The notes under the pieces were generated by a model. It made no database searches and was not told the origin of the DNA. It worked only from the letters and a program-made list of their open reading frames with translations. Below are positions 46,586 to 64,000 of a stretch of DNA of 64,000 nucleotides, one piece after another. Each line of letters begins with the position of its first letter. Position 1 is the first letter of the stretch. The translations under genes and the position numbers were made by a program. The stretch comes from Muribaculaceae bacterium (GTDB lineage: Bacteria; Bacteroidota; Bacteroidia; Bacteroidales; Muribaculaceae): the NCBI GenBank assembly GCA_022508985.1, contig JAFLUA010000002.1, forward strand, positions 124,001 to 188,000, in the 5' to 3' direction.

Positions 46586-46712
46586 GTGTGATGCCGTCTA
46601 AAAAGCTGATGACTGAAAAATGCGTTTATTACTTAGGCAACCGTTTTTATTTCCTGTTTCCCGAACTTAATGCTCAATTATATAAATATTTTTTCAGTTC
46701 TAAAATAATTAT

Positions 46713-46720
46713 TAAATTTG
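46713..46720 (+). promoter_or_regulatory. Promoter -7 element for the secreted-protein gene
   Basis: TAAATTTG 42 bases before the ATG at 46763. The rest of the gap 46586-46712 shows nothing clear; the small open frame there looks spurious. Confidence 0.4.
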
Positions 46721-46762
46721 TGGTGTTAATCAGCATATTATAAGGCTAACATTAAACATACT

Positions 46763-47284: not shown

Positions 47285-47299
47285 TAGTTCGCATCAATA

Positions 47300-48544
47300 T
47301 CACCAACCGCCGGAGGCTCCGCCGCCACCGGTGTGTCCGCCACCAAAACCGCCTCCGCTAAAGCCTCCGCCACCACCGAAACCACCGCCACGATAGATGG
47401 GAGCGGCAACGACAACGGGTATTGCAAATGGTATGGCAGTGATATGGCCACAATGGATGCATGAATATTCATTCACGCCGCGTCCCTGCGTTGTCGCTGT
47501 TGGCTGGCGTAGGATGCGCCGACGTAGCAGCCTTGCAGCGTAGGTGTGACACTGTTCGCACTCCTTGTATCCCGAGGCTGTGTTGACATATTGCTCGATA
47601 TCGGTCTCGCCACAATTTGGGCATAGCCACACGTCGTAATCGACAGAGCCTATGCGCTCCTCAAGGTCTTGATTGCTACGCAGATAGTCGTTATCGTGCA
47701 CCTCATCTACTTTTGTCATGCTCATATAGCATTGCGGGCATTTATGCGGCGCATTGCGGAGCTTATACAAGATAAGTAGAAGCGGCAACGATGCCACCAA
47801 AGGAATGCCGATACCCATCATCGTCATAGGAAGATAGACGGGCTTAAGAGTGGCAAGAGACACATATTTATCGTGCCGGCTTAAAGCGCGAACATTATTT
47901 ATCTTTATAAGCAAGACGATAATCATGACAATAGTGACAACTATTACGATTACCAAATATACTTGGAAGGGGTCGAGATCGTCTTCGCCATTAAAATCGG
48001 CATCAGCCATAGATGAGCGTATCTCTTCGGCCGCGACGGGGTCGGTTAAAATTGTTTCGACAGCTTGGCATGCGGCTATGAGGCCGGCACCATAATCGCC
48101 CTCGCGGAAAGATGGAAACATTTTGTATTTCAAAATATTGGCGCACACTATATCGGGCAACACCCCTTCGAGGCCGTAACCGGGGCGGATGGCCGCTCGA
48201 CGCAAATCTTTCGCCACAAGAATGAGCAGACCATTGTCGAGGTCGCTTTTCCCAAGGCCCCATGCTTCAAAAAGGTCGGTTGCAAAGCCATCGATATCAC
48301 CACCCTCAATGTCTCCTACAATCACCACGGCCGGCTCTGCCGTTGTAGTACGTCGCACAGAGCGCATAAGCGCATTTATCGCTTGCCGGTCGGAGAGATT
48401 AAGGATACCATCGGGGTCGCTCACATAGGCTGCCGTATCGGACAGATGCACATTTGGAATCGTTCCGACAGTGTATGTTGCCGCCCTAAGGGTAACGGCA
48501 AGCAACATCAAGACTATTATTGCAGCAAATTTTCTCAGCGTCAT
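47300..48544 (-). CDS. TPM-domain membrane protein with zinc ribbons
   Basis: Signal peptide, then a TPM domain (about residues 35-165; YVSDPDGILNLSD, VVIVGDIEGGDIDGFATDLF, GLGKSDLDNGLLILVAKD). Two membrane helices follow (about 195-215 and 235-260). The cytoplasmic part holds several CxxC pairs (CPQC, CPNC, CEQC, CIHC) likely to bind zinc, and the protein ends in a Gly-rich tail (GGGGFSGGGFGGGHTGGGG). Relatives include YgcG and TPM phosphatases linked to photosystem repair in plants; the role here is unknown. It follows dgt by 10 bases. Confidence 0.82.
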   Translation of the reverse strand: MTLRKFAAIIVLMLLAVTLRAATYTVGTIPNVHLSDTAAYVSDPDGILNLSDRQAINALMRSVRRTTTAEPAVVIVGDIEGGDIDGFATDLFEAWGLGKSDLDNGLLILVAKDLRRAAIRPGYGLEGVLPDIVCANILKYKMFPSFREGDYGAGLIAACQAVETILTDPVAAEEIRSSMADADFNGEDDLDPFQVYLVIVIVVTIVMIIVLLIKINNVRALSRHDKYVSLATLKPVYLPMTMMGIGIPLVASLPLLLILYKLRNAPHKCPQCYMSMTKVDEVHDNDYLRSNQDLEERIGSVDYDVWLCPNCGETDIEQYVNTASGYKECEQCHTYAARLLRRRILRQPTATTQGRGVNEYSCIHCGHITAIPFAIPVVVAAPIYRGGGFGGGGGFSGGGFGGGHTGGGGASGGW

Positions 48545-48554
48545 GTTTTTATTA

Positions 48555-49904
48555 TCAAACAGCAGGCAAGGACATTCCGTTCAACTTGCGGTATAAATCG
48601 AGAGCATAAACATCGGTCATTGCCGACACATGGTCGAGCACTGCCTGTATCTTCCCAAATTGTGTTGCCGCATGCACATCGTATTGACCAGGCACTTTCG
48701 ATAGCAATAAGCGCGAATAATTAAGGTCGGGCTCGAGAACCGCTCCAACCAGACGTTCTAATAGGAACGTGATAATACGATTGCCAGCCAACTCAATATC
48801 AACAACTTCGGCCGAGCGATATATCTTGGCAAAGGAAATCTCGCTACATTTACGATAGCCTTCTCGCTCCAGCTCTCTTATATGCCCGAGTAGCGAGCCC
48901 TCGAAGCGCCCGGCCAAGATTTCTTCTTCATGCTCGATAAAAGTGAGAGCACATTGCTCCACAAGAGCACCGACAACGCACGAACGCAGATATGCAATTT
49001 TCTCGTTGGGGTCGTCGACAGCATCCATTATTTCCTCCATCCTATCGCGGCGTTCAGGCTCGAAGAAAGCGAGAAAGGCGTCGATAACCTCGCGTGTGGA
49101 GAGGATTTTCAGCTTGTGTGCATCTTCCATATCCATCACCTCGTAGCAGATATCATCTGCCGCCTCGACAATGTATACCAGCGGATGGCGGGCATAGCGC
49201 AACGGCTCTCCCGGTGCCGAGAGTCGCAACATGCCAAGCTCTTGTGCAACCTTCTCAAAATCGGACATTTCAGTGTTGAAAAAGCCAAACTTGCCCTTAG
49301 TAGATAGCGAAGATTCGTATGGGTATTTCACTATCGAGGCCAGCGTCGAGTAGGTCATGGCAAATCCTCCTTTACGGCGCCCCTTGAACTGATGCGTTAG
49401 CACGCGGAAAGCATTGGCATTACCCTCGAAGCGCGTGAGATCGTTCCACTGCTCGGGAGTGAACATCGGCTTGAGACGTTGGCCCTCGCCTTCACTGAAA
49501 AAAGTGCCGATAGCCTTTTCGCCCGAATGCCCGAATGGCGGGTTGCCGAGATCGTGTGCCAGACAGGCGGCTGCCACAATGTCGCCAAGGTGATTGAAAT
49601 GCTCTATCGGTTCGCCCATAGCCGAATATTTCTGGCTCAAAGCAAGGGCCACATTGTCGGCCATCGACTTGCCCACACAAGCCACCTCCATCGAGTGAGT
49701 GAGACGGTTGTGCACGAAAATACTGCCAGGCAAGGGAAAGACCTGCGTTTTATTCTGCAAACGTCTGAAAGGCGATGAGAAAACGAGGCGGTCGTAATCG
49801 CGTCGAAAATCGGTACGTGTACGATTTTTCTTCGGGTCGTGATAATCTTCCAACCCAAAACGTTTATCGTTGACCAAAGAGGCCCAATTCATCTTATTAT
49901 CCAT
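48555..49904 (-). CDS. dgt: Deoxyguanosinetriphosphate triphosphohydrolase-like protein
   Basis: HD-domain hydrolase that removes triphosphate from dNTPs. Residues DRLVFSSPFRRLQNKTQVFP near the N-terminus and the metal-binding HD pair (CLAHDLGNPPFGHSGE) are typical; NRLTHSMEVACVG supplies the first His. 449 residues from the chosen ATG at 49904 (MDNKMNWASL). An earlier in-frame ATG at 49958 is less likely because the promoter element at 49925-49932 lies between the two. dNTPases of this type also limit phage replication in some bacteria. Confidence 0.93.
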   Translation of the reverse strand: MDNKMNWASLVNDKRFGLEDYHDPKKNRTRTDFRRDYDRLVFSSPFRRLQNKTQVFPLPGSIFVHNRLTHSMEVACVGKSMADNVALALSQKYSAMGEPIEHFNHLGDIVAAACLAHDLGNPPFGHSGEKAIGTFFSEGEGQRLKPMFTPEQWNDLTRFEGNANAFRVLTHQFKGRRKGGFAMTYSTLASIVKYPYESSLSTKGKFGFFNTEMSDFEKVAQELGMLRLSAPGEPLRYARHPLVYIVEAADDICYEVMDMEDAHKLKILSTREVIDAFLAFFEPERRDRMEEIMDAVDDPNEKIAYLRSCVVGALVEQCALTFIEHEEEILAGRFEGSLLGHIRELEREGYRKCSEISFAKIYRSAEVVDIELAGNRIITFLLERLVGAVLEPDLNYSRLLLSKVPGQYDVHAATQFGKIQAVLDHVSAMTDVYALDLYRKLNGMSLPAV

Positions 49905-49924
49905 ACTTTCCCTTAAGTTTTGTG

Positions 49925-49932
49925 CAAAAATA
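49925..49932 (-). promoter_or_regulatory. Minus-strand promoter -7 element of dgt
   Basis: TATTTTTG on the minus strand, 21 bases before the dgt ATG at 49904. Confidence 0.5.
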
Positions 49933-50039
49933 CGAAAATTATAGCTGGCATGAAACACCCACCCTAAATTACGAATCTATTGCGAATAAATAGCCGAATT
50001 TTTTTGTTATGGGATTAGCCCCATATAAAACATTTTTTA

Positions 50040-50047
50040 TAAATTTG
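50040..50047 (+). promoter_or_regulatory. Promoter -7 element upstream of the long hairpin RNA
   Basis: TAAATTTG. A start near 50054 would place the RNA hairpin 50101-50317 inside the transcript, either as its own RNA or as leader of the LytTR operon. Confidence 0.5.
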
Positions 50048-50100
50048 CAACGGGTTCTCGATAGAGTCAAAGAGTTGACTTGAGACTCCATACATTTTGT

Positions 50101-50317
50101 AAAAGGTGTTATTGAAATTTTATCTTCCAATATCGAACTTGGCGGTTTGAATTAGCAGTGAAGGTAAGATTGGCAATGGCACCGCATTGATGGCTAATAC
50201 TCCGTCGAGCCGACGGGCTATATAGCAAATCGGTGTGGGGCTATTGTTTTATCTACTGCTAAGGTACGCCAAGACCTGATATTGAGATAAAACAAAGATA
50301 CAGTTCCTGCACCTTTT
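50101..50317 (+). ncRNA. Long irregular hairpin RNA (6S RNA-like shape)
   Basis: Nested complementary arms follow each other from the ends to the middle: 50101-50108 with 50310-50317; 50118-50125 with 50285-50292; AATATC at 50129-50134 with GATATT at 50278-50283; CTTGGCG at 50138-50144 with CGCCAAG at 50266-50272; TTAGCAGT at 50152-50159 with ACTGCTAA at 50255-50262; then CAAT/ATTG, GCACCG/CGGTGT, GCTA/TAGC and a terminal CCGTC/GACGG hairpin at 50202-50206/50212-50216. Nearly all arms pair perfectly. A single rod with internal loops about 215 bases long is the shape of 6S RNA, the promoter mimic that binds RNA polymerase. I cannot confirm that identity by eye; a leader of the LytTR operon is the alternative. 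Confidence 0.55.
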
Positions 50318-50381
50318 TTATATCCATACCAAAGTTTCTTCAGGGGCTGGGAAACAACTCATGCCGAGCACGGATTAATAA

Positions 50382-50759
50382 ATGAAAAATTTTAGAGCCA
50401 CCGATACGACCTTATATTTCAATACACGTGATGAAATGATTAAGGTAAAGTTGGACAAAGTCGCATATTTTGAGGCTGATTCAAACTATTGTCATGTTGT
50501 TTTTATAAATGGGGCAAAAGCAACAGTTTTAACAAGTCTAATTAATATTGAGACACTGCTTTCAGAGAAATTCAGACTAGATTTGCCACTTTTTATTCGT
50601 ATTGGCAAACGGTATATTGTCAACAAAAATTATATTTTTCAAATAAACATACCTCGTCAGAAATTAATTCTTTCCGATTGTTCGTCACCAACTATTCTTG
50701 AGATTAGTATTTCAAAGGAGGCATTAAGAAATTTAAAGTTGCTTTATACAAATGACTAA
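50382..50759 (+). CDS. LytTR DNA-binding domain protein, stand-alone
   Basis: 125 residues consisting almost only of a LytTR DNA-binding domain (VAYFEADSNYCHVVF, LFIRIGKRYIVNKNYI, LEISISKEALRNLKLL). There is no receiver domain or membrane part, so its signal must come from elsewhere, possibly from phosphorylation by the kinases of the island. It heads operon A and overlaps the FHA gene by 8 bases. LytTR proteins bind paired imperfect direct repeats; I did not find a convincing pair, though the leader is long. Confidence 0.85.
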   Translation: MKNFRATDTTLYFNTRDEMIKVKLDKVAYFEADSNYCHVVFINGAKATVLTSLINIETLLSEKFRLDLPLFIRIGKRYIVNKNYIFQINIPRQKLILSDCSSPTILEISISKEALRNLKLLYTND

Positions 50760-51435
50760 AGAATTTATTATCGGTCGTCAAGGCAATCAGAAAATGCCTA
50801 TTAATGACGGCTCAGTCAGCCGTCAGCATTGCAAGGTTACCGACAATGGAGACGGTACATATACTATCGAAAATATCAGTTCAACGGGAGTTACAAAAGT
50901 AGATGGGCGAGAGATTATCAAAACAAAAGCAACTTTAAATAGCCGAATTCAACTTGGGCCAACATTTAGTGCAACGTTAGTAGAATTAATTGGTGCCCAA
51001 TCGTGTAATGATTCTCCAACACCTGGTTCAGATCCAAAGCATGAAGTGAAGACATATAGTATTTCAGGTTTAAAACACATGTGGGAAGAAAATGATGCAA
51101 TTGAGAAAAGGCTTGGGAAGAGAAACAGAGAACTTGGCATTATCAGAAGTTCCTTAGGTATATTTTCATTAGGTGGAATTTTGTCGACAAGACTTATTGG
51201 CGATTCAGGTTTTATTCTTACGGGAATTGGCTTAGCAGGTACATTATATAGTCTATTTATGATGAAAAACATTGAATCATCAGAAGACACACGACAAAGA
51301 AGAATGGAATATAGGAGAAAGTGGGTATGCCCTAATCCGGAATGTGGAAAGGCTTTGAATTTCTCAGATGACTATTATCTATTGAAATCAAACTATCAAT
51401 CATGCCCTTATTGCAAATGCAAATATGTTGAATAA
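50752..51435 (+). CDS. FHA-domain membrane protein with C-terminal zinc ribbon
   Basis: FHA domain at about residues 1-80 with the phosphothreonine-binding residues visible: GRQ at the start, VSRQHC, and the later Asn/Gly turn. Two hydrophobic stretches lie at about 130-175 (LGIFSLGGILSTRLIG and FILTGIGLAGTLYSLFMM), so the FHA and the C-terminus both probably face the cytoplasm. The C-terminal 40 residues contain CPNPECG and CPYCKCK, a four-cysteine zinc ribbon. Probably reads a phosphothreonine made by the kinases of the island. Overlaps the caspase gene by one base. Confidence 0.85.
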   Translation: MTKEFIIGRQGNQKMPINDGSVSRQHCKVTDNGDGTYTIENISSTGVTKVDGREIIKTKATLNSRIQLGPTFSATLVELIGAQSCNDSPTPGSDPKHEVKTYSISGLKHMWEENDAIEKRLGKRNRELGIIRSSLGIFSLGGILSTRLIGDSGFILTGIGLAGTLYSLFMMKNIESSEDTRQRRMEYRRKWVCPNPECGKALNFSDDYYLLKSNYQSCPYCKCKYVE

Positions 51436-52157
51436 TGAGACACATTTTCTTATTTATATTGGTTTCATTTGCTTTACTTGCAAAAGCCGAAACATACGTG
51501 GTATGTGTCGGTATTGGCAATTATGCCAATCCTAAAATGACACTGTATCAGACAGAAAAAGATGCAAAGGATATGGCTGATTTTTACAAGCATGGCACTG
51601 ATAATGTAATTACGATAACCGGAAAAGACGCCACTAAAACCAATGTCCTAAATTGTCTTAAAAGCCAATTTAGTCGTGCCAAGTCAGGCGACAAAATAGT
51701 TTTCTTTTTTAGCGGACATGGCTATGCCGGAGGTTTTTGTCCTTATGAAATGTCAACCACTGCCGATGGGCTGACATATTCAGAAGTGGTCGATATAATG
51801 AGGAGTTCTAAGGCGACAGATAAATTAATTTTCGCCGATGCTTGTAATAGCGGAGCTATTCGTAATGACAAGAAAACCGATTTGCCTGATTTTGGTCATA
51901 TCGTATGCTTTCTTGCCTCTCGAGGACGCGAAGCTGCGACAGAATCAATCACTGCTAACAATGGTTATTTTACAAGAAATTTGATTCGGGGATTATCCGG
52001 TGCGGCCGATACAGATAATGATCGTATAATAACCGCCAAAGAACTTTTTATCTATGTTAGCAACAACGTAAAAGAACAAACGCACGACAAACAACATCCC
52101 GTTATGTGGGGTAATTTTCCCGATGATTTTGTTGTAGTTAAATATCGTAAAAGGTAA
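51435..52157 (+). CDS. Exported caspase-fold peptidase (C14)
   Basis: 240 residues. N-terminal signal peptide (hydrophobic core FLFILVSFALLA, likely cut after AKA). The catalytic pair of the metacaspase/caspase family is clear: His95 in FFFSGHGY and Cys137 in FADACNSG. The N-terminal strand YVVCVGIGNYAN and the helix EKDAKDMADFYK fit the p20 domain. The likely S1 pocket acids are not obvious. Because of the signal peptide it should act in the periplasm or at the surface, unlike cytoplasmic caspase effectors of anti-phage systems. It lies between the FHA gene and kinase 1. Confidence 0.88.
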   Translation: MRHIFLFILVSFALLAKAETYVVCVGIGNYANPKMTLYQTEKDAKDMADFYKHGTDNVITITGKDATKTNVLNCLKSQFSRAKSGDKIVFFFSGHGYAGGFCPYEMSTTADGLTYSEVVDIMRSSKATDKLIFADACNSGAIRNDKKTDLPDFGHIVCFLASRGREAATESITANNGYFTRNLIRGLSGAADTDNDRIITAKELFIYVSNNVKEQTHDKQHPVMWGNFPDDFVVVKYRKR

Positions 52158-52206
52158 TTTATCGAAGTGTATGCACTTAATTGACGACTCACAATTGAAT
52201 AAGTCT

Positions 52207-53289
52207 ATGCATTTAAAACAAAACGCAGAGCTTCAGAATGGTAAATATCGGATTGCCAGAGCATTAGGACAGGGCGGTTTCGGTATTACCTATTTGGCTG
52301 AAAACATTTTGCTTGGCAACCAAGTAGCCATAAAAGAATTTTTTTCTAAAGACTATTGCGGAAGAAATACGACCAGCCATTTAACTTTAGGAACGGAGAG
52401 TAATAGAGAAACAGTTGCAAAATTAAAAGATCGTTTCTTAAAAGAAGCTCGAAATATAGCCAAACTGGATCATCCGGGAATAGTTAGAGTGTTTGATGTT
52501 TTTGAAGAAAATGATACAGCATATTATGTCATGGAGTATATCCATGGCGAAAATCTGAATGAAATCGTCAAACAGAATGGGCCACTACCAGAAGATAAAG
52601 CTATTAAATATGTAACTGAAGTTGGCTCTTCACTGGAATATATTCATTCCAAAAATATGACTCATTTCGATGTCAAACCAGCAAATATTATCATCCGCAA
52701 AAAAGATGATTTACCCATTCTGATTGATTTCGGTCTTTCTAAACAGTATGACAGCAAGGGTGATGCCACTTCAACAATGATGCAAGCTGTCAGCCACGGT
52801 TATTCCCCGATTGAACTCTATAATGCCGGTGCAATCCAAGTATTTTCACCACAAACTGATGTATATTCTTTAGGGGCAACGCTGTATTATTTGGTTACGG
52901 GTGCAGTCCCTCCACATGCTTCAGTCCTAATTGACAAAGGAATTTACCTATCTAATTCTTTTTCAAAATCATTGCAATGCGTTATTATTCAGTCAATGAA
53001 AATTAGTCGTGAAAGAAGAATTAAATCTATATCTGATTTTATAAAATTACTAACAAATCCTGAGTCCAGTATTGAAACTCAACAAATAATTCATAATCCT
53101 AAAATTTCAATGGAGGAATCATCAGGATATATTAATTATAATAGCCCTGATGTGGAAGATGATGATCGGACATTTTACTGCAGGTTCCTCGATAGACTTT
53201 GTGGTGATCGACAATGGGCGCGCGATCTTGTTACTACACTTATTTTAGTTGGGTTGGTTGGTGGAGTGTTTCTTCTTAAGTTTTTATGA
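52207..53289 (+). CDS. Ser/Thr protein kinase 1 with C-terminal membrane anchor
   Basis: Hanks-type kinase. Numbered from ATG 52207: glycine loop LGQGGFG (20-26), catalytic Lys43 in AIK, a family insert with DYCGRNTTSHLTLGT, catalytic Asp155 in HFDVKPAN and metal-binding Asp174 in DFG. The activation end reads YSPIELYNAG where the other two kinases of the island have YAPIEQY or FAPLEQY. After about 290 a linker follows, then one hydrophobic helix at the very C-terminus (TTLILVGLVGGVFLLKFL). A start at 52171 is possible, but 52207 aligns with kinase 2 (MQLKQDTELQNGKY). Confidence 0.92.
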   Translation: MHLKQNAELQNGKYRIARALGQGGFGITYLAENILLGNQVAIKEFFSKDYCGRNTTSHLTLGTESNRETVAKLKDRFLKEARNIAKLDHPGIVRVFDVFEENDTAYYVMEYIHGENLNEIVKQNGPLPEDKAIKYVTEVGSSLEYIHSKNMTHFDVKPANIIIRKKDDLPILIDFGLSKQYDSKGDATSTMMQAVSHGYSPIELYNAGAIQVFSPQTDVYSLGATLYYLVTGAVPPHASVLIDKGIYLSNSFSKSLQCVIIQSMKISRERRIKSISDFIKLLTNPESSIETQQIIHNPKISMEESSGYINYNSPDVEDDDRTFYCRFLDRLCGDRQWARDLVTTLILVGLVGGVFLLKFL

Positions 53290-53315
53290 TTTATATCTAA
53301 TTCAATACAATAAAC

Positions 53316-54191
53316 ATGGGAAATCATAAAATTGACTATTCATCAAAAATTTGTTGCCCTCATTGTGGAGAATATACACGCTCTCTTAAATACTACAACA
53401 TGGTAACAAAAAGGATTTATTTTTTTTACTATTTTGAAATAGGAACGACTCCTTTAGTTGGCTGTCCGAAATGCATAAACCGTCAAAATTTCTGGAGGAC
53501 TTTTAATGATAATATCATTAAAGCAAACATTGCGTGGCCAATTTTACATCTACCGATCGCACTTATAACGTTTATACGTTCAATTACTCCAGGTCATTCC
53601 GGAACTGTAAAATATTATATTGATCAGTACAATCAGAACGAAATAAACTCCTTTTCAAAAGTTTTTCATAATTGGTCTGGAATACCATGTATTCCGCCAC
53701 CTTTCTCTTTGCTTTTGAAAAAAGAAGTAAAAAAAACTGTCAAAAGAGCAATAGAGCTAAAATCATTTGTATGGCTAATAAAGGCATGGTGTTATCTTAA
53801 TCGTGAAATTTTTTATGTAAATTTCAACGGTCATGCTATTGCCTGTGCAGAGAATACGTTATCACCAGGATTTGTTGCCTTTGATAGCGAAAAATCATCT
53901 GAATTATTTTACAGAGACTTCTTCGTTATTCCCTATGATTTTAACCACCTTTTGCAGGAATCTCAGAATTATTTAGATAAATTACAGGAAGAATTAAATT
54001 TTATTGTAGAAAAAGATTCTCAAGGGAATATTCATATACACGCGAAATGCTTGTACGATGTAAACTTTAATGACAATCCAATTAGTCAATTAGATTGGAT
54101 AATGGAACGAGTAATTGGAATAAGAAATGACTTTGCCAAATGGTTTAATAATGCGAAAATTGGTTCGATAGAACAGACCCAACTATTATAA
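53316..54191 (+). CDS. Zinc-ribbon membrane protein, unknown
   Basis: 291 residues, not recognised. The N-terminus has CCPHCGEYTRS and CPKCINRQ, a likely four-cysteine zinc ribbon, followed by a hydrophobic segment (about 72-92, IAWPILHLPIALITFI). The rest is polar with a coiled-coil-prone stretch (LLQESQNYLDKLQEELNFIV). The gene is squeezed between kinase 1 (26 bases) and kinase 2 (1 base), so it likely works with them, maybe as adaptor or substrate. Confidence 0.7.
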   Translation: MGNHKIDYSSKICCPHCGEYTRSLKYYNMVTKRIYFFYYFEIGTTPLVGCPKCINRQNFWRTFNDNIIKANIAWPILHLPIALITFIRSITPGHSGTVKYYIDQYNQNEINSFSKVFHNWSGIPCIPPPFSLLLKKEVKKTVKRAIELKSFVWLIKAWCYLNREIFYVNFNGHAIACAENTLSPGFVAFDSEKSSELFYRDFFVIPYDFNHLLQESQNYLDKLQEELNFIVEKDSQGNIHIHAKCLYDVNFNDNPISQLDWIMERVIGIRNDFAKWFNNAKIGSIEQTQLL

Positions 54192-54192
54192 T

Positions 54193-55653
54193 ATGCAGTT
54201 AAAACAAGATACCGAGCTTCAGAATGGTAAATATCGAATTGTCCGAGTTTTAGGACAAGGCGGTTTCGGAATTACCTATCTTGCAGAGCATACCATGCTC
54301 GACAAGTATGTCGCTATCAAAGAATTCTTTCCAAAAGAATATTGCGATAGAGAAGACACCACGAGCCATGTAACGTTAGGCTCCAAAAATACTGCTGAAC
54401 TCGTGGGGGCATTGAAAACCAAATTTATTAAAGAAGCAAAGAATATATCTAAATTGAGACATCCTAATATTATTACAATTCACGATATATTTGAGGAAAA
54501 TTCCACAGCATATTATGTGATGGAATTTATAGATGGACAGTCTCTTTCTGATACTATTAAGACAAAAGGTGCCATAGATGAGACCTCCGCAGTAAGCTAT
54601 ATTGTAAAAATTTCAGATGCTGTTGGCTATATGCATTCTTTGAGCATGAATCACTTGGATCTTAAGCCGGCCAATATAATGATCCGTTCTATTGACGGCG
54701 AACCTGTTTTGATTGATTTCGGTCTTTCTAAACAATACGATGCAAGCGGAGGTCAAACATCCACGACTCCGATCGGCATCAGTTATGGCTATGCGCCTAT
54801 CGAACAATACCGTCCTGGAGGAGTCGCAACTTTCTCACCGCAAACAGATATTTATGCTCTCGGCGCAACGCTTTTTGCACTGCTCACCGGTAACAATCCT
54901 CCGCATTACAGCGACATACTTGAAGACGGACTGCCTGCGCTTCCTGCAACAGTGTCTAAACGAGCCGCCGATGCCATTGAGCATGCTATGGAGATTAAGA
55001 AGAACAAACGTCCGGAGTCTATTTCCATGTTCCTTTCAGAACTGATTGCTGACGAAAAGATTGTTGAGAAGCCCGAACCGCAACCCGCTGAAGAGGCTAA
55101 AAAGCCAACGGAAGAAACGGTTTTGATTGTTGCAGAGCCTGTCGTTGAAAAGCCAAAAGTAGAGGTCTCTGCTCCGAGAAATATCATAATCGACGGCATT
55201 GAGTTTGTCGACCTCGGGCTATCCGTCCGTTGGGCCAATATGAACATAGGAGCAAAAAAGCCCTCCGATCTCGGAACTTTCATTGACAAAACACACAATA
55301 GTGAGACAAATGCAGTTCTTGAGTACAATCAAAAGGGCGCAAAAATACCAACTATAGGCCAATGGGAAGAACTTAAAAATCATTGTAGTTGGGAATGGAC
55401 CGAAGTGAATGATATGGGCGGATACAAAGTAAAGGGGCGTAATGGCAATTACATTTTTATGCCTTTTACCGGAGAATCTGCCAATACAGGGTTTCGTTCT
55501 TTTGGCCGATTATTCACCTATGAAACATTTTATAGCTCCAACCATAACCACTTTGAATTATATTATTTCTATTTTGCTCATGGAGGGATATATAAATTAA
55601 CGAGATATTCACTTAACTATCGTTGTCCTGTGAGATTAGTTTACGAAAAATAG
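54193..55653 (+). CDS. Ser/Thr protein kinase 2 fused to a Fib_succ_major-like domain
   Basis: 486 residues. Kinase domain with LGQGGFG, Lys43 (AIK), Asp156 in HLDLKPAN, Asp175 in DFG, then a Pro/Glu-rich linker (about 285-325). The last 155 residues read as a Fibrobacter-succinogenes-major-paralog-type domain (FVDLGLSVRWANMNIGAKKP, IPTIGQWEELKNHCSWEW, YKVKGRNGNYIFMPF), usually found in secreted Bacteroidetes proteins. No membrane helix lies between the two, so the domain would be cytoplasmic here. Its first 45 bases of coding sequence closely repeat those of kinase 1, pointing to duplication. Confidence 0.9.
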   Translation: MQLKQDTELQNGKYRIVRVLGQGGFGITYLAEHTMLDKYVAIKEFFPKEYCDREDTTSHVTLGSKNTAELVGALKTKFIKEAKNISKLRHPNIITIHDIFEENSTAYYVMEFIDGQSLSDTIKTKGAIDETSAVSYIVKISDAVGYMHSLSMNHLDLKPANIMIRSIDGEPVLIDFGLSKQYDASGGQTSTTPIGISYGYAPIEQYRPGGVATFSPQTDIYALGATLFALLTGNNPPHYSDILEDGLPALPATVSKRAADAIEHAMEIKKNKRPESISMFLSELIADEKIVEKPEPQPAEEAKKPTEETVLIVAEPVVEKPKVEVSAPRNIIIDGIEFVDLGLSVRWANMNIGAKKPSDLGTFIDKTHNSETNAVLEYNQKGAKIPTIGQWEELKNHCSWEWTEVNDMGGYKVKGRNGNYIFMPFTGESANTGFRSFGRLFTYETFYSSNHNHFELYYFYFAHGGIYKLTRYSLNYRCPVRLVYEK

Positions 55654-55952
55654 GACGCATATATTGTAGATTCCAAATCGAAATGCAAAACTTCGAGTTA
55701 AGAAACTCCTCTCTCCAATTACTCTCGTGAGCGGTAGACGCTGACGAGACAGTCCCCCAAGAACGCATAAATTAATTGCCGTTGACCTGCTGGAAAGTAT
55801 ATAATACAGATAATAAATGCTAATAGCGTAATATACATGTTAGTACGAGTTATCGCAAAATTGTGGTTGCTACATAGATAATATCTTTTTTATGCATTTT
55901 TTGCATTTCATCCATTAATACTAATATTTCATCCAATATACTTCAAAAAGAC
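55654..55952. other. Intergenic region between operons A and B
   Basis: No gene seen. One well-formed hairpin is TCTCGT (55723-55728), G, AGCG (55730-55733), five-base loop, CGCT (55739-55742), G, ACGAGA (55744-55749); smaller repeats are GAGTT/AACTC near 55694-55707 and ATGCA/TGCAT near 55900. No T run follows the main hairpin, so it is not a classical terminator. Confidence 0.4.
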
Positions 55953-55984
55953 TTGACAAACATATATTTATAAAACTACCTTTG
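55953..55984 (+). promoter_or_regulatory. Promoter of operon B
   Basis: TTG at 55953-55955, 21-base spacer, TACCTTTG at 55977-55984: a good Bacteroidetes consensus, 35 bases before the start of the glycine-zipper protein. Confidence 0.65.
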
Positions 55985-56019
55985 CAAAGAAATTCTGAAA
56001 CAAATAAAAACTTAATAAT

Positions 56020-56961
56020 ATGAATAGCGAAGTAAACGGCAAATCCGCTTCACAAAGTGAAGAAACCCGCCTCATCTATGAGGAACCCCAAAATCAGGCT
56101 AAAGAACAGCCAACAAATGAAACTAATAAAAAATCTTCTAAAGGAGCAGCCCTTGCTGCCGGTGTCGGTGGTTTTGTAGCTGGAGCAGCCGTTGGTGCAG
56201 GCGTTAGTGCTGCTGCCGCAACACCTTCTGTAGAAGTCGAAACTGAGACGGAAGAAGCGGTAGTAGATATCGAAACAGAACAACAGAATATACCCGAACC
56301 TGAACATGTAATACTTGCCAATAGCGAAGGAATCCGAGTGGCTCATGTCGACGCTGATAATTTCGCAGATGCATTTGCACAAGCTCGTGCGCAAGTTGGT
56401 CCTGGTGGAGTATTCGAGTATAACGGCAAACTTTATGGCACCTATTATGAAGACGAATGGAACGAAATGTCGCACCAGGAGCGTGCGGATTATCAGGCAC
56501 GCGTAAGCGAAATCACACCTGCTCACCACTCGGATACGGTTCATGATATAGCTTCTGAATCCAACCATCCTGGTGAAATTATTCCTACCAATGCAGAATT
56601 ACTCGGTGTTGAACCAGTGAACAATGAAGTTCACGTGCTCGGAGTTCAAACTGTGCATACTGAAAATGGGGATACAATAGATGTTACAATACTTGAAAAT
56701 CACGGGCAACATGCGCTTTTGGTTGATGTTGAAGGAGAACAAGCCCTCTTTATCGATGTTGATAATGACGGATACTTGGAAATTGCAATGCACGATGACA
56801 ACGTAGATGGGAAAATATCAGAAAACGAGATTCACGACATTTCAAATAGTGGGCTTCACGTATTTGACATCTTAGGGGAGCCAGATGGGCAAGCATTCAA
56901 TACAATTGATGATAATATGCCTGATTATATCAACGACGCCGATTCATTTTTAGACGCTTAA
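56020..56961 (+). CDS. Glycine-zipper protein with EF-hand-like loops
   Basis: 313 residues, acidic. A short polar N-terminus precedes one glycine/alanine-rich hydrophobic stretch (about 42-70, GVGGFVAGAAVGAGV) that could insert in membranes. A central block (FAQARAQVGPGGVFEYNGKL, then YGTYYEDEWNEMS) recurs in Bacteroidetes proteins of unknown role. Two consecutive EF-hand- or dockerin-like calcium loops follow (DVDNDGYLEIAM and DDNVDGKISENE, about residues 246-275). No signal peptide. It heads operon B and overlaps the next gene by one base. Candidate substrate or membrane target of the kinase system. Confidence 0.75.
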   Translation: MNSEVNGKSASQSEETRLIYEEPQNQAKEQPTNETNKKSSKGAALAAGVGGFVAGAAVGAGVSAAAATPSVEVETETEEAVVDIETEQQNIPEPEHVILANSEGIRVAHVDADNFADAFAQARAQVGPGGVFEYNGKLYGTYYEDEWNEMSHQERADYQARVSEITPAHHSDTVHDIASESNHPGEIIPTNAELLGVEPVNNEVHVLGVQTVHTENGDTIDVTILENHGQHALLVDVEGEQALFIDVDNDGYLEIAMHDDNVDGKISENEIHDISNSGLHVFDILGEPDGQAFNTIDDNMPDYINDADSFLDA

Positions 56962-57506
56962 TGAATAAGATTTTTATAACTTGTCCCGAGTGCCAGCAAC
57001 AGCTTTCGTTTAACGAAGTCCCCGGCTATCAAAACATGGTGGTAGAATGTCCGAAATGCCATTTCAAAGCAAATGCCAGCGTTTATCAAAGTGGCCCACA
57101 ATCACGAGGAGCACAAGGCGCAGACGAAATGCCGACACAGTTAGTAATACCACCGACATCGACTATAGATATTGGTCAGATCCGCGTGAAATCGACGAAT
57201 GAGGTCCAATGGCTACGAGAGGGAACAAATATCATTGGGCGCAGAGCCAAATCTGGCGATGCTGACATTAAAATCAGTAATGACATGACTATGAGTCGAC
57301 GGCATCTGCGCATTGATGTAGTAAAAAAAGAAAAAGGATATGAACATCGTCTTGTTGAGATTGGCTCTACAAATATTATAAAGCTAAATGGAGTACCCAT
57401 TCAACGAGAGGACATTCTGAGGCTCAAGTTTGGTGATATTCTCACTCTCGGGAAGACTGATATTATATTCGAATCGAATGATGAAGAGGCAACAAAACTC
57501 TACTAA
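56961..57506 (+). CDS. Zinc-ribbon FHA-domain protein
   Basis: 181 residues, soluble. The N-terminus holds a zinc ribbon (CPECQQQ and CPKCHFK), then a linker, then an FHA domain from about residue 80 with IIGRRAK, MSRRHLRI and STNIIKLNGV, the residues that read phosphothreonine. The linker contains MPTQL and other threonines that could be autoregulatory sites. It sits 3 bases before the PP2C gene, so reader and eraser are coupled. Confidence 0.88.
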   Translation: MNKIFITCPECQQQLSFNEVPGYQNMVVECPKCHFKANASVYQSGPQSRGAQGADEMPTQLVIPPTSTIDIGQIRVKSTNEVQWLREGTNIIGRRAKSGDADIKISNDMTMSRRHLRIDVVKKEKGYEHRLVEIGSTNIIKLNGVPIQREDILRLKFGDILTLGKTDIIFESNDEEATKLY

Positions 57507-57509
57507 GAT

Positions 57510-58520
57510 ATGATTACAATTCGCAAGCCACTAAGCTTCTCTGAAATAGGGCAAAAAGATAACCAAGAAGATTATCTCTTCCCTGTTAACGCAACCACGG
57601 ATTCGCGAGTATTTATATTGTGCGACGGAATGGGTGGACATGACAACGGAGAGGTGGCGAGTAAAACAGCAGCAGAGGCACTCGGCGCATTCCTTTCCTC
57701 GAGGACATCAATTGACAAAGAGGCATTTGAGACTGGTTTGGCAATCGCTTATAAAGCACTCGACAGCATCGATACAAATACATCAAAGAGGCCTGGCACC
57801 ACCATGACATGTCTATGCCTTAATGATAACTCGTATCTTGTTGCTCATATTGGCGATAGTAGAATATATCACATTCGTCCATCATTGTACGACCAAAAGA
57901 CCGGCCGAGGAGGCATAATTTATCAATCTTCCGACCACTCTCTTGTTAATGATTTGCTCAAAGCCGGAGAATTAACCGAAGAAGAAGCTCGCAACTTTCC
58001 TCAAAAAAATATTATCACGCGGGCGATGCAACCGCATCTCTCCAAGAGATACAATGCAGATATGTTTGTGTTTGACAATATTGAAAATGGCGACTATTTC
58101 TTTTTGTGCTCTGATGGCGTTCTCGAGCAACTATCAAACGAACAACTTTGCGAAACCCTTGCGGATCGGTTATTATCGGACGAACAAAAATTAGCTAAAC
58201 TCAAATCGATATGCGATGATCGCACTCGCGACAATTATGCTTGTTGGCTTATTCCTATCAACATAGTTGATGTTAATTCTTCAACTTCTGACTCTTCAAT
58301 GATTATAAAAGCCGAGGCCGAAGAGTTGAATAACTATACCGACGAACCCAGAGAAAATATTGATGTTAGAGCAACACACTCACAAACGCGTAACAAGCTT
58401 CAATTATTCAATAAAGTCAACCCTAAAATAAAAGCCGTTTCATTTAGCATTTTGAATTTAATAGCTCTTTTAGCTATTCTGTATATCGCTTATGTACTAA
58501 TTAAACGACTTTTCTCATAA
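57510..58520 (+). CDS. PP2C-type Ser/Thr phosphatase with C-terminal membrane anchor
   Basis: 336 residues. Metal-dependent phosphatase motifs: GQKDNQEDY, LCDGMGGHDNGEVAS, GTTMTCLCL, HIGDSRIYHI, SSDHSLVNDLL, FLCSDGVLE and DNYACWLI. After about 290 residues comes a single hydrophobic helix at the C-terminus (AVSFSILNLIALLAILYIAY), leaving the catalytic domain in the cytoplasm beside the membrane-bound kinases. It should reverse their phosphorylation. It lies 6 bases before kinase 3. Confidence 0.93.
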   Translation: MITIRKPLSFSEIGQKDNQEDYLFPVNATTDSRVFILCDGMGGHDNGEVASKTAAEALGAFLSSRTSIDKEAFETGLAIAYKALDSIDTNTSKRPGTTMTCLCLNDNSYLVAHIGDSRIYHIRPSLYDQKTGRGGIIYQSSDHSLVNDLLKAGELTEEEARNFPQKNIITRAMQPHLSKRYNADMFVFDNIENGDYFFLCSDGVLEQLSNEQLCETLADRLLSDEQKLAKLKSICDDRTRDNYACWLIPINIVDVNSSTSDSSMIIKAEAEELNNYTDEPRENIDVRATHSQTRNKLQLFNKVNPKIKAVSFSILNLIALLAILYIAYVLIKRLFS

Positions 58521-58526
58521 CGAAAT

Positions 58527-60014
58527 ATGTTATCACTCGGATTGCGACAGGGTTCAATATTGCGAAACGACACATACCGCATTGAACGAATACTCGGTCA
58601 AGGCGGTTTCGGTATTACATATCTTGCCACAGATTTATCACTTGAACGGTTTGTGGCTGTAAAAGAATTCTTCCCCAAAGATTATTGCGAGCGTGAGAGC
58701 ACTACTTCACATATAACTATCGGAACCAGTTCTAATGTTGATTTAGTTTCACGCTTGAAAGCAAAATTCTTAAAAGAAGCAAGGAATATTGCCAAACTTG
58801 ATCATCCGGGGATTATAAAGATTCATACTGCATTTGAGGAGAACAACACTGCCTATTATGTTATGGATTATATAGAGGGCAGAAACCTCAGTGAAATGGT
58901 AAAACAGACTGGTCCTCTTTCTGAATCTAAAGCGATTCAATACATCTCGAAAGTAGGTGACGCACTTGATTATATTCATAAACAGAATATTAATCATTTA
59001 GATATAAAGCCTGCAAATATAATGATTCGTAAATCCGATGACCGTCCAGTCCTTATTGATTTTGGTCTATCCAAACAATATGATGCGAAAGGAAACCAAA
59101 CATCGACGACTCCGACAGGCATTAGTCATGGTTTTGCCCCTTTAGAACAATATAAAGTTGGCGGTGTAAGCGAGTTTTCGCCTCAAACTGATGTATATTC
59201 TCTTGCAGCGACTTTATATTATATAATTTCGGGGACTATTCCTCCGCATGCAACCGATCTTGTCGAAGAAAATATTAAGTTCCCTTCTGGGTTCCCCGTG
59301 AGTATTAGACCTGCTATCACCAAAGCCATGTCTTCGAGTCGAAAAAACAGACATGCTGGTGTATCCCAATTTGTTAAATCTTTGAAAGTTAAGACAGATA
59401 AGGAAAACACACAAGTCATTCATCCGCAACCAGTTCCACAGCCACAACCCGAAATAGAAAATAAAAATTTATCTAAGATATTCCTTGCAATAGGTGTCGT
59501 TGTTGCAATCGCACTGATAATAATCTTCGTCAATAGGACAACATCTGATTCCGGTTCACCATCCAATGAAGGGGATTTTGTTGCAATAGAATCTGAAATC
59601 GAACCTCAAAAGGCCAACTCTGTTACTGGGGCAAAAATACAAACCACTAAAATTGAAATCACAATCGACAACAACACTATGTGCGCCACTTTGGCCGAAA
59701 ATGAAGCCACTAAAGCTCTCATCGAAAAACTATCTTCCGGCCCTATTACAATCACGATGGACAACTATGGCAGGTTTGAGAAAGTTGGAGCTCTGCCTTG
59801 GTCGCTCCCTGCGTCCGATACGCGCGTCACGGCCAAACCGGGCGATATAGTGCTTTATACAAGCAATTACATCGAAATATTTTATGGCACAGATACATGG
59901 TCGTACACTCCTCTCGGAGTACTCGATTCAACGATATCTTCTGAAATAAGTGCCTTTGTAGGATCCGGCGCTAAAAAAGTGACATTATCGTTGGTGGAGT
60001 CGGCCGGAATGTAA
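58527..60014 (+). CDS. Ser/Thr protein kinase 3 with membrane helix and external cyclophilin-like domain
   Basis: 495 residues. Kinase domain with LGQGGFG, Lys46 (AVK), Asp159 in HLDIKPAN, Asp178 in DFG. A Pro/Gln linker precedes one membrane helix (about 317-336, IFLAIGVVVAIALIIIFV). The last 125 residues would be periplasmic and resemble the small cyclophilin-like fold proteins of bacteria (IEITIDNNTMCATLAENEAT, LPWSLPASDTRVTAKPGDIV and LYTSNYIEIFYGT). Kinase receptors with such a sensor are not known to me. A further domain lies out of frame directly behind the stop codon. Confidence 0.9.
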   Translation: MLSLGLRQGSILRNDTYRIERILGQGGFGITYLATDLSLERFVAVKEFFPKDYCERESTTSHITIGTSSNVDLVSRLKAKFLKEARNIAKLDHPGIIKIHTAFEENNTAYYVMDYIEGRNLSEMVKQTGPLSESKAIQYISKVGDALDYIHKQNINHLDIKPANIMIRKSDDRPVLIDFGLSKQYDAKGNQTSTTPTGISHGFAPLEQYKVGGVSEFSPQTDVYSLAATLYYIISGTIPPHATDLVEENIKFPSGFPVSIRPAITKAMSSSRKNRHAGVSQFVKSLKVKTDKENTQVIHPQPVPQPQPEIENKNLSKIFLAIGVVVAIALIIIFVNRTTSDSGSPSNEGDFVAIESEIEPQKANSVTGAKIQTTKIEITIDNNTMCATLAENEATKALIEKLSSGPITITMDNYGRFEKVGALPWSLPASDTRVTAKPGDIVLYTSNYIEIFYGTDTWSYTPLGVLDSTISSEISAFVGSGAKKVTLSLVESAGM

Positions 60015-60250
60015 TAGATGCCGATGATGGCGATATTTTGCCTGGCTGTATTGTATCCTTAGACAATCACATAACAACAATTACAAGTATTGATGGATCA
60101 TATACAATCAACAATGTAAATATTAATTCAGCAATAACGTTTGAACATTATGGATACAAATCAAAGACCATCTTTTTTAAAAATAAGATTCCGCCAACTC
60201 TTAATATCAGTTTGAGACTCGGCGAAGGAAAAGAATTTGAAGTATATTAA
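59975..60250 (+). pseudogene. Out-of-frame carboxypeptidase-regulatory-like domain behind kinase 3
   Basis: In the -1 frame relative to kinase 3, the reading frame is open from 59975 to 60250 and encodes VGRNVIDADDGDILPGCIVS followed by ITSIDGSYTINNV and FEHYGYKSKTI. This is the pattern of the CarboxypepD_reg-like fold, which in Bacteroidetes is attached to membrane and secreted proteins. There is no good start codon (TTG at 60038 cuts the domain). It is probably a former C-terminal domain of kinase 3 separated by an indel near 60008, or reached by slippage on the six A at 59973-59978. Confidence 0.6.
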
Positions 60251-60409
60251 AGGTCTCGGAAAAGAATCATAATGTTTTTGTTTATATCAAAACACTTTAA
60301 TTAGGAGCCCACAAAAATAGCTCGGATGGCGTATGTTGTTACATTTTCCCGAACTTTTTTGTCGTTTCCCGTTATTACTGATTGGTATTTTGGCGGTGTC
60401 GCGTCGGCT

Positions 60410-62446
60410 TTATTTGTAGCCTTTTTCGAGGAATTCGATGAAGCGCGGTATGTTTTCGTCGTACGACATTGGGCCTGATATCAGTTGTCCTTTGTCGTTG
60501 AGGATTACGTAGAAAGGTTGGGCATTGGCGCTAAATTTATATCGTTGCAGATAGCTCCAGCGGTCGCCATAGGTTTCGAGTACTATTTTTTTGCCATTTT
60601 CTTCGACGATGACAGGCTCGGGTAGCGAGCGTTTCTCGTCGACCATAAGTTTTATAACGACAAAGTTATCTTCGATCAAGGAGTGAACGCGGTCGTTGTC
60701 GAGGACCGCTCCTTCCATCTTGCGGCAGTTAACGCACCCATAACCCGAGAAATCTATCATCACAGGCTTACCTTCTTTGCGAGCGGCGGACATGCCTTCT
60801 TCGTAGTCGTCATACTCGACAAATTCGCGGCCATAAAGGTTGAAATCTTGTGTGAACAATGGCGGCACGAATGCGCTGACGGCTTTCAAGGGAGCTCCCC
60901 ACAAACCGGGTATTAGATATATGGCGAAGGCGAGCGATGCCATTGCCGAGAAGAAGCGGAAGACGCCGACGCCGGTGTCGGCTTTGCCGTAATGTGCAAA
61001 GTTGAACTGTCCGAGTAGGTATAGGCCCATCAGCCCGAAGATTACCACCCACAACACGATAAATACTTCGCGGTCGAGGATATGCCATCCGTAAGCTAAA
61101 TCGGCCACTGACAGGAATTTGAGCGACAGCGCAAGTTCGATAAAGCCGAGTACTACTTTCACTGTATTCATCCATGAGCCCGACTTTGGCGCGCTCTGCA
61201 AGAGCGAGGGGAACATTGCAAAGAGGCAGAATGGTATGGCAAGAGCCAGCGAAAAACCAAACATGCCAACAGCCGGGCCGAGTTTATCGCCGGTGCTTGC
61301 AGCCTCGACGAGTAGCGTGCCTATGATAGGGCCGGTGCACGAAAAGGATACGAGCGTAAGCGTAAAGGCCATGAAAAAGATGCTCAACAAGCCGGTAGTC
61401 TTCTCTGCCGTAGAGTCCATCTTATTGCTCCACGATGAGGGCAATGTTATGTCGAAGGCTCCGAAGAACGAGATTGCAAACACCACGAGCAGCAGGAAGA
61501 AGATGATGTTGCACACAGCGCTCGTTGACAGGGCATTAAGCGAGCTTGCCCCAAAGATGGCTGTTATAATGAGGCCCAGCGCCAGATATATAACGATAAT
61601 CGAAACGCCATAGATTGTGGCGTCGATAATCGACTTGGACCGGCTCTTTCCTTTTTTCAAAAAGAAGCTCACTGTCATCGGTATCATAGGCCATACGCAA
61701 GGTGTGAGTAGGGCTATAAAGCCACCGAGGAAACAGGTGAAAAAGATATACCACAATGAGCCCGAGGCGTCGGCCGCTCCCGGTGCCCCATCGCTGTATG
61801 TGACAGGAGCCCACAACGAGGCCTCGTCGACGACATCGGTGGCGGGCACCACTGCGGCACTATCGTCGGGTGTAGCATCTGTTTCTGCTACTTCGGCTGT
61901 TTCTTCGGCCGTGCTGTCAAGTTGGTCCTGTTTTGCTGCGACCTCATCTTGTGGTGCGACTGTAGCGGCCACCTTTGCAGTGCCTGAGAGAACAAACGAC
62001 TCTTTCGTCGGCGGTATACAGTTTTGGTCGTTACAAGCAGAGAATAATATATTTCCAACGATGTCGAAGGCTTCGGCCGTTGCCGTAAACTTCTGGCGCA
62101 GTGTAATCGAGCCTTCCCACCAACTGAGAGTGGCTTCAAACATTTCGTCGTACTCGCTGTGAGCGGCACGCTCGGGCACCAATGCACCCACAAGTTTGAC
62201 GCCCTCAAGCTTAGAATACGATACCGACAAGGGCTCGGGACCAATTTCGGGATCAACATCCATCGAATAGACATGCCAACCGCCATCTATTGCAGCCTTA
62301 AAGACAATCTCGCCACTATTGTCGCCTGTCATTTCAATTGCCGACGACCATTTAGCCGGTGTAAAAATCTGAGCCGCAGAGCTTACAACGCCTATAACTA
62401 ACAATATCGTAAGATGCAATATGCGATTTACCATAATCTTTTTCAA
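60410..62446 (-). CDS. dsbD: Thiol:disulfide interchange protein DsbD
   Basis: Moves reducing power from cytoplasm to periplasm. Signal peptide, an N-terminal periplasmic domain (about 25-145, with SACNDQNCIPPTKESF, a Cys pair), an acidic linker, eight membrane helices with LLTPCVWPMIPMTVSFFLKK and FSCTGPIIGTLLVEA cysteines, and a C-terminal thioredoxin domain with YGCVNCRKMEG. 678 residues is typical for the Bacteroidales form. Forms the right border of the kinase island. Confidence 0.95.
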   Translation of the reverse strand: MKKIMVNRILHLTILLVIGVVSSAAQIFTPAKWSSAIEMTGDNSGEIVFKAAIDGGWHVYSMDVDPEIGPEPLSVSYSKLEGVKLVGALVPERAAHSEYDEMFEATLSWWEGSITLRQKFTATAEAFDIVGNILFSACNDQNCIPPTKESFVLSGTAKVAATVAPQDEVAAKQDQLDSTAEETAEVAETDATPDDSAAVVPATDVVDEASLWAPVTYSDGAPGAADASGSLWYIFFTCFLGGFIALLTPCVWPMIPMTVSFFLKKGKSRSKSIIDATIYGVSIIVIYLALGLIITAIFGASSLNALSTSAVCNIIFFLLLVVFAISFFGAFDITLPSSWSNKMDSTAEKTTGLLSIFFMAFTLTLVSFSCTGPIIGTLLVEAASTGDKLGPAVGMFGFSLALAIPFCLFAMFPSLLQSAPKSGSWMNTVKVVLGFIELALSLKFLSVADLAYGWHILDREVFIVLWVVIFGLMGLYLLGQFNFAHYGKADTGVGVFRFFSAMASLAFAIYLIPGLWGAPLKAVSAFVPPLFTQDFNLYGREFVEYDDYEEGMSAARKEGKPVMIDFSGYGCVNCRKMEGAVLDNDRVHSLIEDNFVVIKLMVDEKRSLPEPVIVEENGKKIVLETYGDRWSYLQRYKFSANAQPFYVILNDKGQLISGPMSYDENIPRFIEFLEKGYK

Positions 62447-62468
62447 CTATTTAATTAAATGATAATTG

Positions 62469-62476
62469 CAAAGGTA
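62469..62476 (-). promoter_or_regulatory. Minus-strand promoter -7 element of dsbD
   Basis: TACCTTTG on the minus strand, 22 bases before the dsbD start. No clear -33 element. Confidence 0.5.
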
Positions 62477-62581
62477 AAGAATTTTTTTCGCTTTTCTACG
62501 CTATAGCTGAAAAAACGAGGGAAACAAGGCTGATGAAACGCGACGGAAAGGCAACATCGGTTGTTGCGGTCTCAAAGAAAT

Positions 62582-63223: not shown

Positions 63224-63226
63224 TTA

Positions 63227-63904: not shown

Positions 63905-64000
63905 TTGCGCTATTTATTATCAATAAAACAACCGCCGGCCTGCCAACAGAGGGCTATACCGACGGTCGTGTATGGCGTATGAGAATTTATTTCGAGAATT

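Follow-up and report, generated by a model that had tools for sequence, protein, structure and literature searches.

A recurring Bacteroidota gene set of Hanks kinases, FHA proteins, a PP2C phosphatase and a caspase-fold protease, exemplified by a ten-gene island of a Muribaculaceae bacterium

In GarA and OdhI, an FHA domain reads an N-terminal phosphothreonine motif of the type T-x-V/L-hydrophobic; TerY-P triads consist of vWA, PP2C, and kinase components, and the threonine phosphorylation pathway of type VI secretion combines a kinase, a PP2C, and an FHA protein. Here, we analyzed a 64,000-nucleotide stretch from a Muribaculaceae bacterium (GenBank assembly GCA_022508985.1, contig JAFLUA010000002.1, positions 124,001 to 188,000; this whole stretch is referred to as the window, and its coordinates are used below), in which ten plus-strand open reading frames (ORFs) at 50382-60014 encode, according to Pfam, a LytTR protein, two FHA proteins, a secreted caspase, three Hanks kinases, a PP2C phosphatase, and two unknowns. 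These ten genes belong together, and related sets recur in other Bacteroidota. Judged from sequence, the island is on balance probably a phosphothreonine receptor-kinase signalling system, in which the sensors are exchangeable and in some cases hypermutated and a periplasmic protease is one output.

The ten products are numbered P1 to P10 in gene order. P1 (50382..50759; PF04397, E 1.6e-9) is a LytTR DNA-binding protein without a receiver domain, and P2 (50752..51435; PF00498, E 2.9e-10; IGR, SRQH) has an N-terminal FHA domain and a C-terminal, Zn-ribbon-like Cys pair. P3 (51435..52157; PF00656, E 4.5e-17) is a predicted caspase-fold peptidase, whose C14 domain retains the His-Cys pair (SGHG, DACNSG) and whose signal peptide is, by reading, MRHIFLFILVSFALLAKA. 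Three Hanks kinases follow at intervals: P4 (52171..53289; PF00069, E 8.5e-42), with a C-terminal transmembrane (TM) helix at residue 350; P6 (54193..55653; PF00069, E 1.2e-38), with a FISUMP-like tail at residues 333-464 recognized by a tail profile; and P10 (58527..60014; PF00069, E 1.5e-37), with a TM helix at residue 313 and a C-terminal cyclophilin-like domain (PF18050, Cyclophil_like2, E 1.2e-21). No TM helix was found between kinase and tail of P6 in the TM and hydropathy scan; its C-terminal domain may be cytosolic, and that of P10 periplasmic. P8 (56961..57506; PF00498, E 3.7e-10) joins a Zn ribbon to an FHA domain, and P9 (57510..58520; PF13672, E 2.3e-10) is a PP2C phosphatase with a C-terminal TM helix, matching the Stp1/IreP-like model NF033484 at E 3.5e-45, under that model's cut-off. 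All three kinases retain GQGGFG, VA[IV]K, HxDxKPAN, and DFG, the FHA domains of P2 and P8 retain IGR and SRxH, and P9 retains DGMGG, GDSR, SDG, and DN with the metal-binding Asp residues, which we take to be the catalytic and binding motifs of these families. The two unknowns are P5 (53316..54191), with CxxC pairs and a hydrophobic stretch at residue 72, which has no family in Pfam, PADLOC, or NCBIfam and no relative among the ORFs of the collected loci; and P7 (56020..56961), with a glycine-rich helix at residues 42-60 and a conserved module at residues 107-158, but no Pfam family as a whole. By reading, P7 also has an acidic EF-hand-like stretch (residues 246-270) and the C-terminal tail MPDYINDAD, conserved as MPDYxNDAD. 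Hydropathy agrees with a signal peptide in P3, one TM helix each in P4, P9, and P10, and the glycine-rich helix in P7.

The genes are arranged in two same-strand blocks, P1-P6 (50382-55653) and P7-P10 (56020-60014), separated by 366 bp; their spacing suggests two operons. The sequence TACCTTTG at 55977-55984, 36 bases ahead of the P7 start codon, presumably resembles the Bacteroides -7 box TAnnTTTG. GC content is 0.32-0.44 within the island versus about 0.50 on either side, and the flanking genes were named dgt and dsbD by reading. A conserved dgt-island-dsbD site was considered and rejected, no LytTR or FHA gene lying within 1.5 kb of dgt at 13 other dgt loci. Four Pkinase matches occur in the genome, three of which are P4, P6, and P10. 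When the same hidden Markov models were applied to 325 ORFs from another 302 kb of DNA of the same bacterial family, one caspase was found, and LytTR, FHA, kinase, PP2C, and the P7 module were all at zero. The preliminary description of this DNA had the gene content right, since all ten ORFs are present, all but P5 and P7 with Pfam domains over the cut-offs, and the island is, as it said, A+T-richer than its borders. Of the bounds it gave, 50382..60250, the start holds and the end does not, for the last gene stops at 60014; its two operons survive as two blocks, their operon status resting on spacing.

Compared with described systems, the island has the same kinase, PP2C, and FHA reader types as the actinobacterial PknB-PstP-GarA/OdhI type; unlike it, the island links these genes with LytTR, P7, and caspase, shows no PASTA domain in the Pfam results, and spreads its motif over kinases, P5, P7, and the Zn-ribbon/FHA protein. 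The PP2C-kinase neighbours, and a vWA gene beside a plasmid copy in Runella, resemble TerY-P triads, but no vWA occurs among the ten proteins. The kinase-phosphatase-FHA logic is common to the type VI threonine pathway as well; however, neither type VI genes nor other secretion genes (Pfam) were found among the ten proteins, the rest of the genome not having been searched for type VI genes. In cyanobacteria, the accessible text of one study describes a Ser/Thr kinase with a retroelement-rewritten C-terminal C-type-lectin-like domain, and caspase domains too (PMC7517822). There, the kinase or caspase itself is fused to the variable domain, whereas the kinases here are surrounded by separate caspase, FHA, PP2C, LytTR, and P7 genes; the words forkhead and Bacteroid are absent from its main text, as the word kinase is from the main text of a global retroelement survey (PMC8144416). 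VMAP/MoxR-vWA ternary conflict systems, as far as the accessible parts of PMC7159879 and PMC10907252 describe them, share caspase-type proteases, lectin-fold sensors, and a retroelement link with the present set, but MoxR and vWA have no Pfam match in the ten proteins. No account of this gene set was found in full text in the one open-access library searched, in agreement with the preliminary description, which knew of no described system with such a composition.

The recurrence of the set is best followed from the P7 module (56338..56493, plus strand; V.D.MSFxxAFAxARxEVGxGGxFEWxG..Y.TY..EW), a segment of about 50 residues derived by comparing P7 homologues and supported by module alignments, whose best Pfam match among 8 members has an E value of 0.0036. 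It was detected in 4 of 345 phylum genomes and 14 of 393 order genomes, with the genome of the window in both sets. The resulting sample of 17 genomes gave 19 loci, several cut by contig ends, and all were read. A Zn-ribbon/FHA gene (P8 type) lies nearby at 18 of the 19, the exception (L129) stopping at a contig end; a kinase is found at 18, PP2C at 15, an FHA/Zn-ribbon gene (P2 type) at 14, and LytTR at 4. Caspase is present at 12, one of them on the opposite strand (L119) and one (L067) missed by ORF picking and counted from the caspase search. Since eight of these loci had supplied the module alignment, the 11 that were not in the seed are given separately: 10 have the Zn-ribbon/FHA gene, 10 a kinase, 8 PP2C, and 7 a caspase.

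The same association is seen from the phosphatase. The PP2C search matched 50 and the caspase search 82 of 247 order genomes, with neighbouring pairs seen, and 15 of 59 family genomes have a PP2C match with an E value of 1.3e-40 or lower. In a scan of named genomes, the best 80 matches came mostly from Bacteroidales metagenome-assembled genomes, with Parabacteroides, Runella, Dyadobacter, Spirosoma, Larkinella, and Fibrella, one Ferruginibacter, and one Flavivirga; the PP2C ORF was retained in 76, and 61 loci were at least 12 kb long. Within 6 kb of PP2C in these 61, a kinase is found at 46, the P8-type FHA gene at 44, the P2-type FHA gene at 35, LytTR at 28, the P7 module at 25, and caspase at 22, so that at least five of the six possible partners occur at 16 loci and at least three at 45. 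The latter count bears out, around PP2C, the co-occurrence of families that the preliminary description had proposed to look for around the kinases, and its view of one recurring system gains from the linkage seen in relatives; the lack of linkage that would have spoken against it did not occur. Its term self-contained is fair for the window but does not carry over, as composition differs from locus to locus.

Gene order is also recognizable. A P8-type FHA gene is among the next three same-strand genes of 49 of 61 P7-module ORFs (all loci, a set partly anchored on PP2C), and the usual order is LytTR, P2-type FHA, P7, caspase where present, P8-type FHA, PP2C, and kinase(s); the window departs from it in that caspase, kinase, P5, and kinase are inserted between P2 and P7. 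A plasmid copy in Runella rosea holds FHA, P7-module protein, FHA, PP2C, and caspase, adjoined by the vWA gene mentioned above, while Parabacteroides distasonis and relatives have a reduced form in steady order (LytTR, FHA, a small protein, FHA, PP2C, kinase). At one P. distasonis locus (L139, NZ_OY725779.1; a 375-kb record called plasmid 34), a small acidic protein replaces P7, a histidine kinase gene precedes the operon, and TPR-like and kelch genes follow it. At another locus (L135), PP2C and caspase share one ORF with a hydrophobic segment between them, which would place PP2C inside and the caspase outside. PP2C divergence runs in step with that of both FHA families (Mantel rho 0.64 and 0.63; permutation maxima 0.28 and 0.20; 33 loci). 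Abortive-infection-like proteins at one locus (L112), proposed to stand in P5's place, were withdrawn; they are without a Pfam match.

A second property common to the partners is a putative phosphothreonine motif, [DE]x(0,1)Tx[LIV], which we presume to be akin to the GarA/OdhI site. Against shuffles of the same residues, it is enriched 2.9-3.8 fold in kinase linkers (149 sites versus 39.6, with 81 of 126 linkers carrying it), in the regions before the FHA domain of Zn-ribbon/FHA proteins (60 versus 17.4; n=75) and in their tails (12 versus 4.2; n=28), and in P7 N-termini (52 versus 13.9; n=54). Control regions show no such excess: kinase domains (33 versus 75.6), FHA domains (11 versus 21.5), PP2C domains (49 versus 82.4), distal kinase parts (56 versus 53.9), P7 beyond the module (69 versus 68.9), PP2C tails (20 versus 27.4), and tails of the P2-type FHA proteins (16 versus 17.0). 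The enrichment holds in previously uninspected kinases (68 versus 19.5; n=71; maximum of 500 shuffles, 37) and previously uninspected P8-type FHA proteins (31 versus 9.1; n=42; shuffle maximum, 19), and 28 outside kinases, from whose few-kb loci the system is absent, are at background (6 versus 5.6). In the window, the motif is found in the linkers of P6 (EETVL, residue 307) and P10 (ENTQV, residue 293), near the N terminus of P7 (EETRL, residue 14), and at the C termini of P5 (EQTQLL, residue 286) and P8 (EATKL). The motif threonine may be phosphorylated and read by FHA domains.

The third line of evidence concerns the sensors. FGE-sulfatase, WG-repeat, kelch, LamG, PKD, and OmpA domains lie on or beside the kinases of cluster loci, and FISUMP/Lcl_C-like kinase tails are found there too. 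At one P7-module locus (L127, genome G691), the cluster contains a reverse transcriptase that has YVDD and GNLTSQ, and a 196-nt template upstream of it recurs in two kinase genes, at their 3' ends. The first repeat differs from the template at 20 of 50 adenines and 1 of 146 other bases (p 8e-13), the second at 22 of 50 and 3 of 146 (p 2e-12). The same plan is found in G683, a genome of another family (24 of 57 adenines in each repeat; 2 of 148 and 1 of 148 other bases; p 1e-13 and 1e-14), and the four variable repeats together have 90 of 214 adenines changed versus 7 of 588 other bases; with reverse transcriptase, template, and adenine-differing variable repeats, both genomes thus possess diversity-generating retroelements. 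A further 58-nt repeat of L127 has three copies (7656-7713, 12364-12421, and 12435-12492), situated where the reverse transcriptase gene ends and after the second of the targeted kinases. Diversified kinase sensors suggest recognition of changing ligands.

No further adenine-biased repeat pair was found in the other system loci scanned; a locus with PP2C only (L078) has one weak T-biased pair with 7 mismatches. The enzyme is matched in 9 of 30 genomes that possess the system or a near PP2C, and in 2 it lies inside the cluster; in G695, G743, and G781, the reverse transcriptase is elsewhere in the genome, without a match to their kinase clusters. A related reverse transcriptase is found in 28 of 393 order genomes, and 20 stretches from 19 of these contain no kinase, FHA, or PP2C genes, their adenine-biased repeats being in other genes; at L381 and L380 (G720 and G707), these are FISUMP-domain genes and not kinases. 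The P6 tail is of the same domain type as the diversified sensors, without a retroelement: no adenine-biased repeat exists in window positions 45001-64000, and the single RVT_1 match of the genome has QGAPTSP, not GxxxSQ. The latter enzyme (L332:6585-8264, 559 residues) is followed by genes for 373 and 213 residues.

Taken as a signalling system, the island might work as follows. The kinase would be activated by a ligand on its C-terminal domain, which would be periplasmic in P10 and cytosolic in P6, and would phosphorylate the motif threonine on its own linker, on P7, and on P8. P2 and P8 would dock on these tags through their FHA domains and so assemble the complex at the membrane, and PP2C would erase the tags. 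LytTR would set the operon level, and P7 could relay the signal through the membrane by its glycine-rich helix, one output being the periplasmic caspase. Such a circuit would most likely serve to recognize variable molecules that are foreign or come from neighbouring cells, although ligand, output, and any defence role are conjectural. More tentatively, the kinases may be immune-like receptors of Bacteroidota, with lectin-fold tips that are exchanged or, in some strains, rewritten by an internal retroelement; once activated, they would place a common phosphothreonine tag on kinases, P7, and the Zn-ribbon/FHA protein, FHA proteins would assemble on it, and P7 would signal to the periplasmic caspase.

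Several observations weigh against this interpretation. At 14 of the 61 long PP2C loci, at most one partner is present, and this PP2C subfamily therefore also lives elsewhere; caspase is near only 22 of the 61, so it cannot be the sole output, and the Parabacteroides form has neither P7 module nor caspase. The Mantel correlation of P7 is weak (0.41 and 0.38 versus permutation maxima of 0.32 and 0.31), and step-wise divergence can also be explained by shared host descent. The motif was defined after sequence inspection, and the unseen sets, of which there is none for P7, are related to those seen; P4 lacks the strict motif, extra and perhaps chance matches occur in P1, P3, P6, P7, P8, P9, and P10, and caspases show a slight excess (35 versus 24.7) inside the shuffled range. 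Finally, the retroelement is inside the cluster at only 2 of the 19 P7-module loci, and in the window's own genome nothing matches the reverse transcriptase of L127.

Part of this would fit a conserved regulator of envelope stress or surface homeostasis, whose kinases would sense the wall or surface, whose LytTR protein would adjust expression, and whose caspase would trim periplasmic proteins; sensor differences would then reflect the usual turnover of domains, and the retroelement would have been acquired late and rarely. The steadily ordered, caspase-free form of P. distasonis and relatives suits such a regulator, as do the cyclophilin-like, WG, kelch, LamG, PKD, and OmpA domains in or beside the clusters and the flanks, in which no clear excess of known defence genes was seen among 106 of 331 flank proteins compared with 106 controls from one bacterial family. 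The flank proteins gave PADLOC matches to 38 families, those listed in one or two proteins each, and the controls to 10, in one protein each; because several models of one system can match a single protein, and the tool does not count proteins, these are counts of families and argue neither for nor against enrichment. We nevertheless regard such a regulator as rather doubtful, since the distribution is patchy (the P7 module and PP2C frequencies above, and the plasmid copy) and adenine-directed hypermutation of sensors fits changing ligands, not a fixed one; sensor swapping, together with retroelement diversification in two relatives, points to the former.

An anti-phage abortive system, in which kinases would sense phage and trigger the caspase to kill the cell, is unlikely. 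The caspase linkage at 12 of 19 P7 loci and the PP2C-caspase fusion would agree with it, and the retroelement-diversified sensors resemble those of the conflict systems in the accessible parts of PMC10907252 and PMC7159879. However, the PADLOC matches of the island are to generic kinase, caspase, or PP2C models, and the kinase ones, on which a likeness to the single-kinase defence PD-T4-6 would rest, match Hanks kinases generally; the NCBIfam model MAD6 scores 120, 106, and 118 bits, far under its cut-off of 460, which does not place the island in MADS; the flanks lack a clear defence-gene excess; the caspase of the window bears a signal peptide; and no viral contig carries a close PP2C, the viral search giving 9 weak relatives. 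One of 50,697 phage records has the P7 module; this unverified scaffold of 5 kb, named "Bacteriophage sp." (L140, MT838606.1), carries LytTR, FHA, P7-module, FHA, and part of a PP2C gene and is perhaps bacterial DNA in a virus preparation. That separate signalling genes with no shared function merely came to lie together in an A+T-rich pocket is barely credible: composition does vary between loci, and the 14 PP2C loci outside the set would be expected, but the linkage already contradicts it, as do the conserved order, the shared motif, and the 302-kb control, empty of these families except for one caspase. Of the earlier interpretation, one recurring system is retained, and envelope stress, secretion, and defence remain guesses.

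Ahead of the first operon lies a structured leader RNA (50101..50361, plus strand; profile match), a family-wide element with a fold z of -6.2 for 50045-50345. By reading, it forms a long rod closed by AAAAGGUGU/ACACCUUUUUU and then a second hairpin before the start codon; in an alignment of 38 sequences, from which 3 fetched copies were left out, 26 of 62 predicted pairs are changed on both sides in at least one sequence. It overlaps no Rfam match at E<=1, and by the libraries searched, both it and the P7 module are new families. The leader is multi-copy, in 32 of 59 family genomes, with 60 copies among the matches listed. Of the 59 foreign ones, 40 were fetched, and 37 of these lie within 170 nt upstream of a same-strand ORF (divergent side, 2 of 40; random positions, 645 of 2000). 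Several downstream genes encode exported BspA-type leucine-rich-repeat proteins, and behind one copy (L319:2489-3982), such repeats and a caspase share one protein. The leader was not found in plasmid or phage collections, and it was rejected as a part of the system because it is absent from the other clusters.

In Bacteroidota, few circuits of kinase, phosphatase, and FHA protein have both a known substrate motif and a defined output. Here, a single operon would unite receptors with a writer, a reader, and an eraser, a regulator, and a protease; as each partner has a predicted phosphosite, the pathway should be testable peptide by peptide. Through the retroelement, kinase receptors of Bacteroidales that have a separate caspase gene are linked to targeted hypermutation, and this would render anticipatory recognition by bacteria open to experiment.

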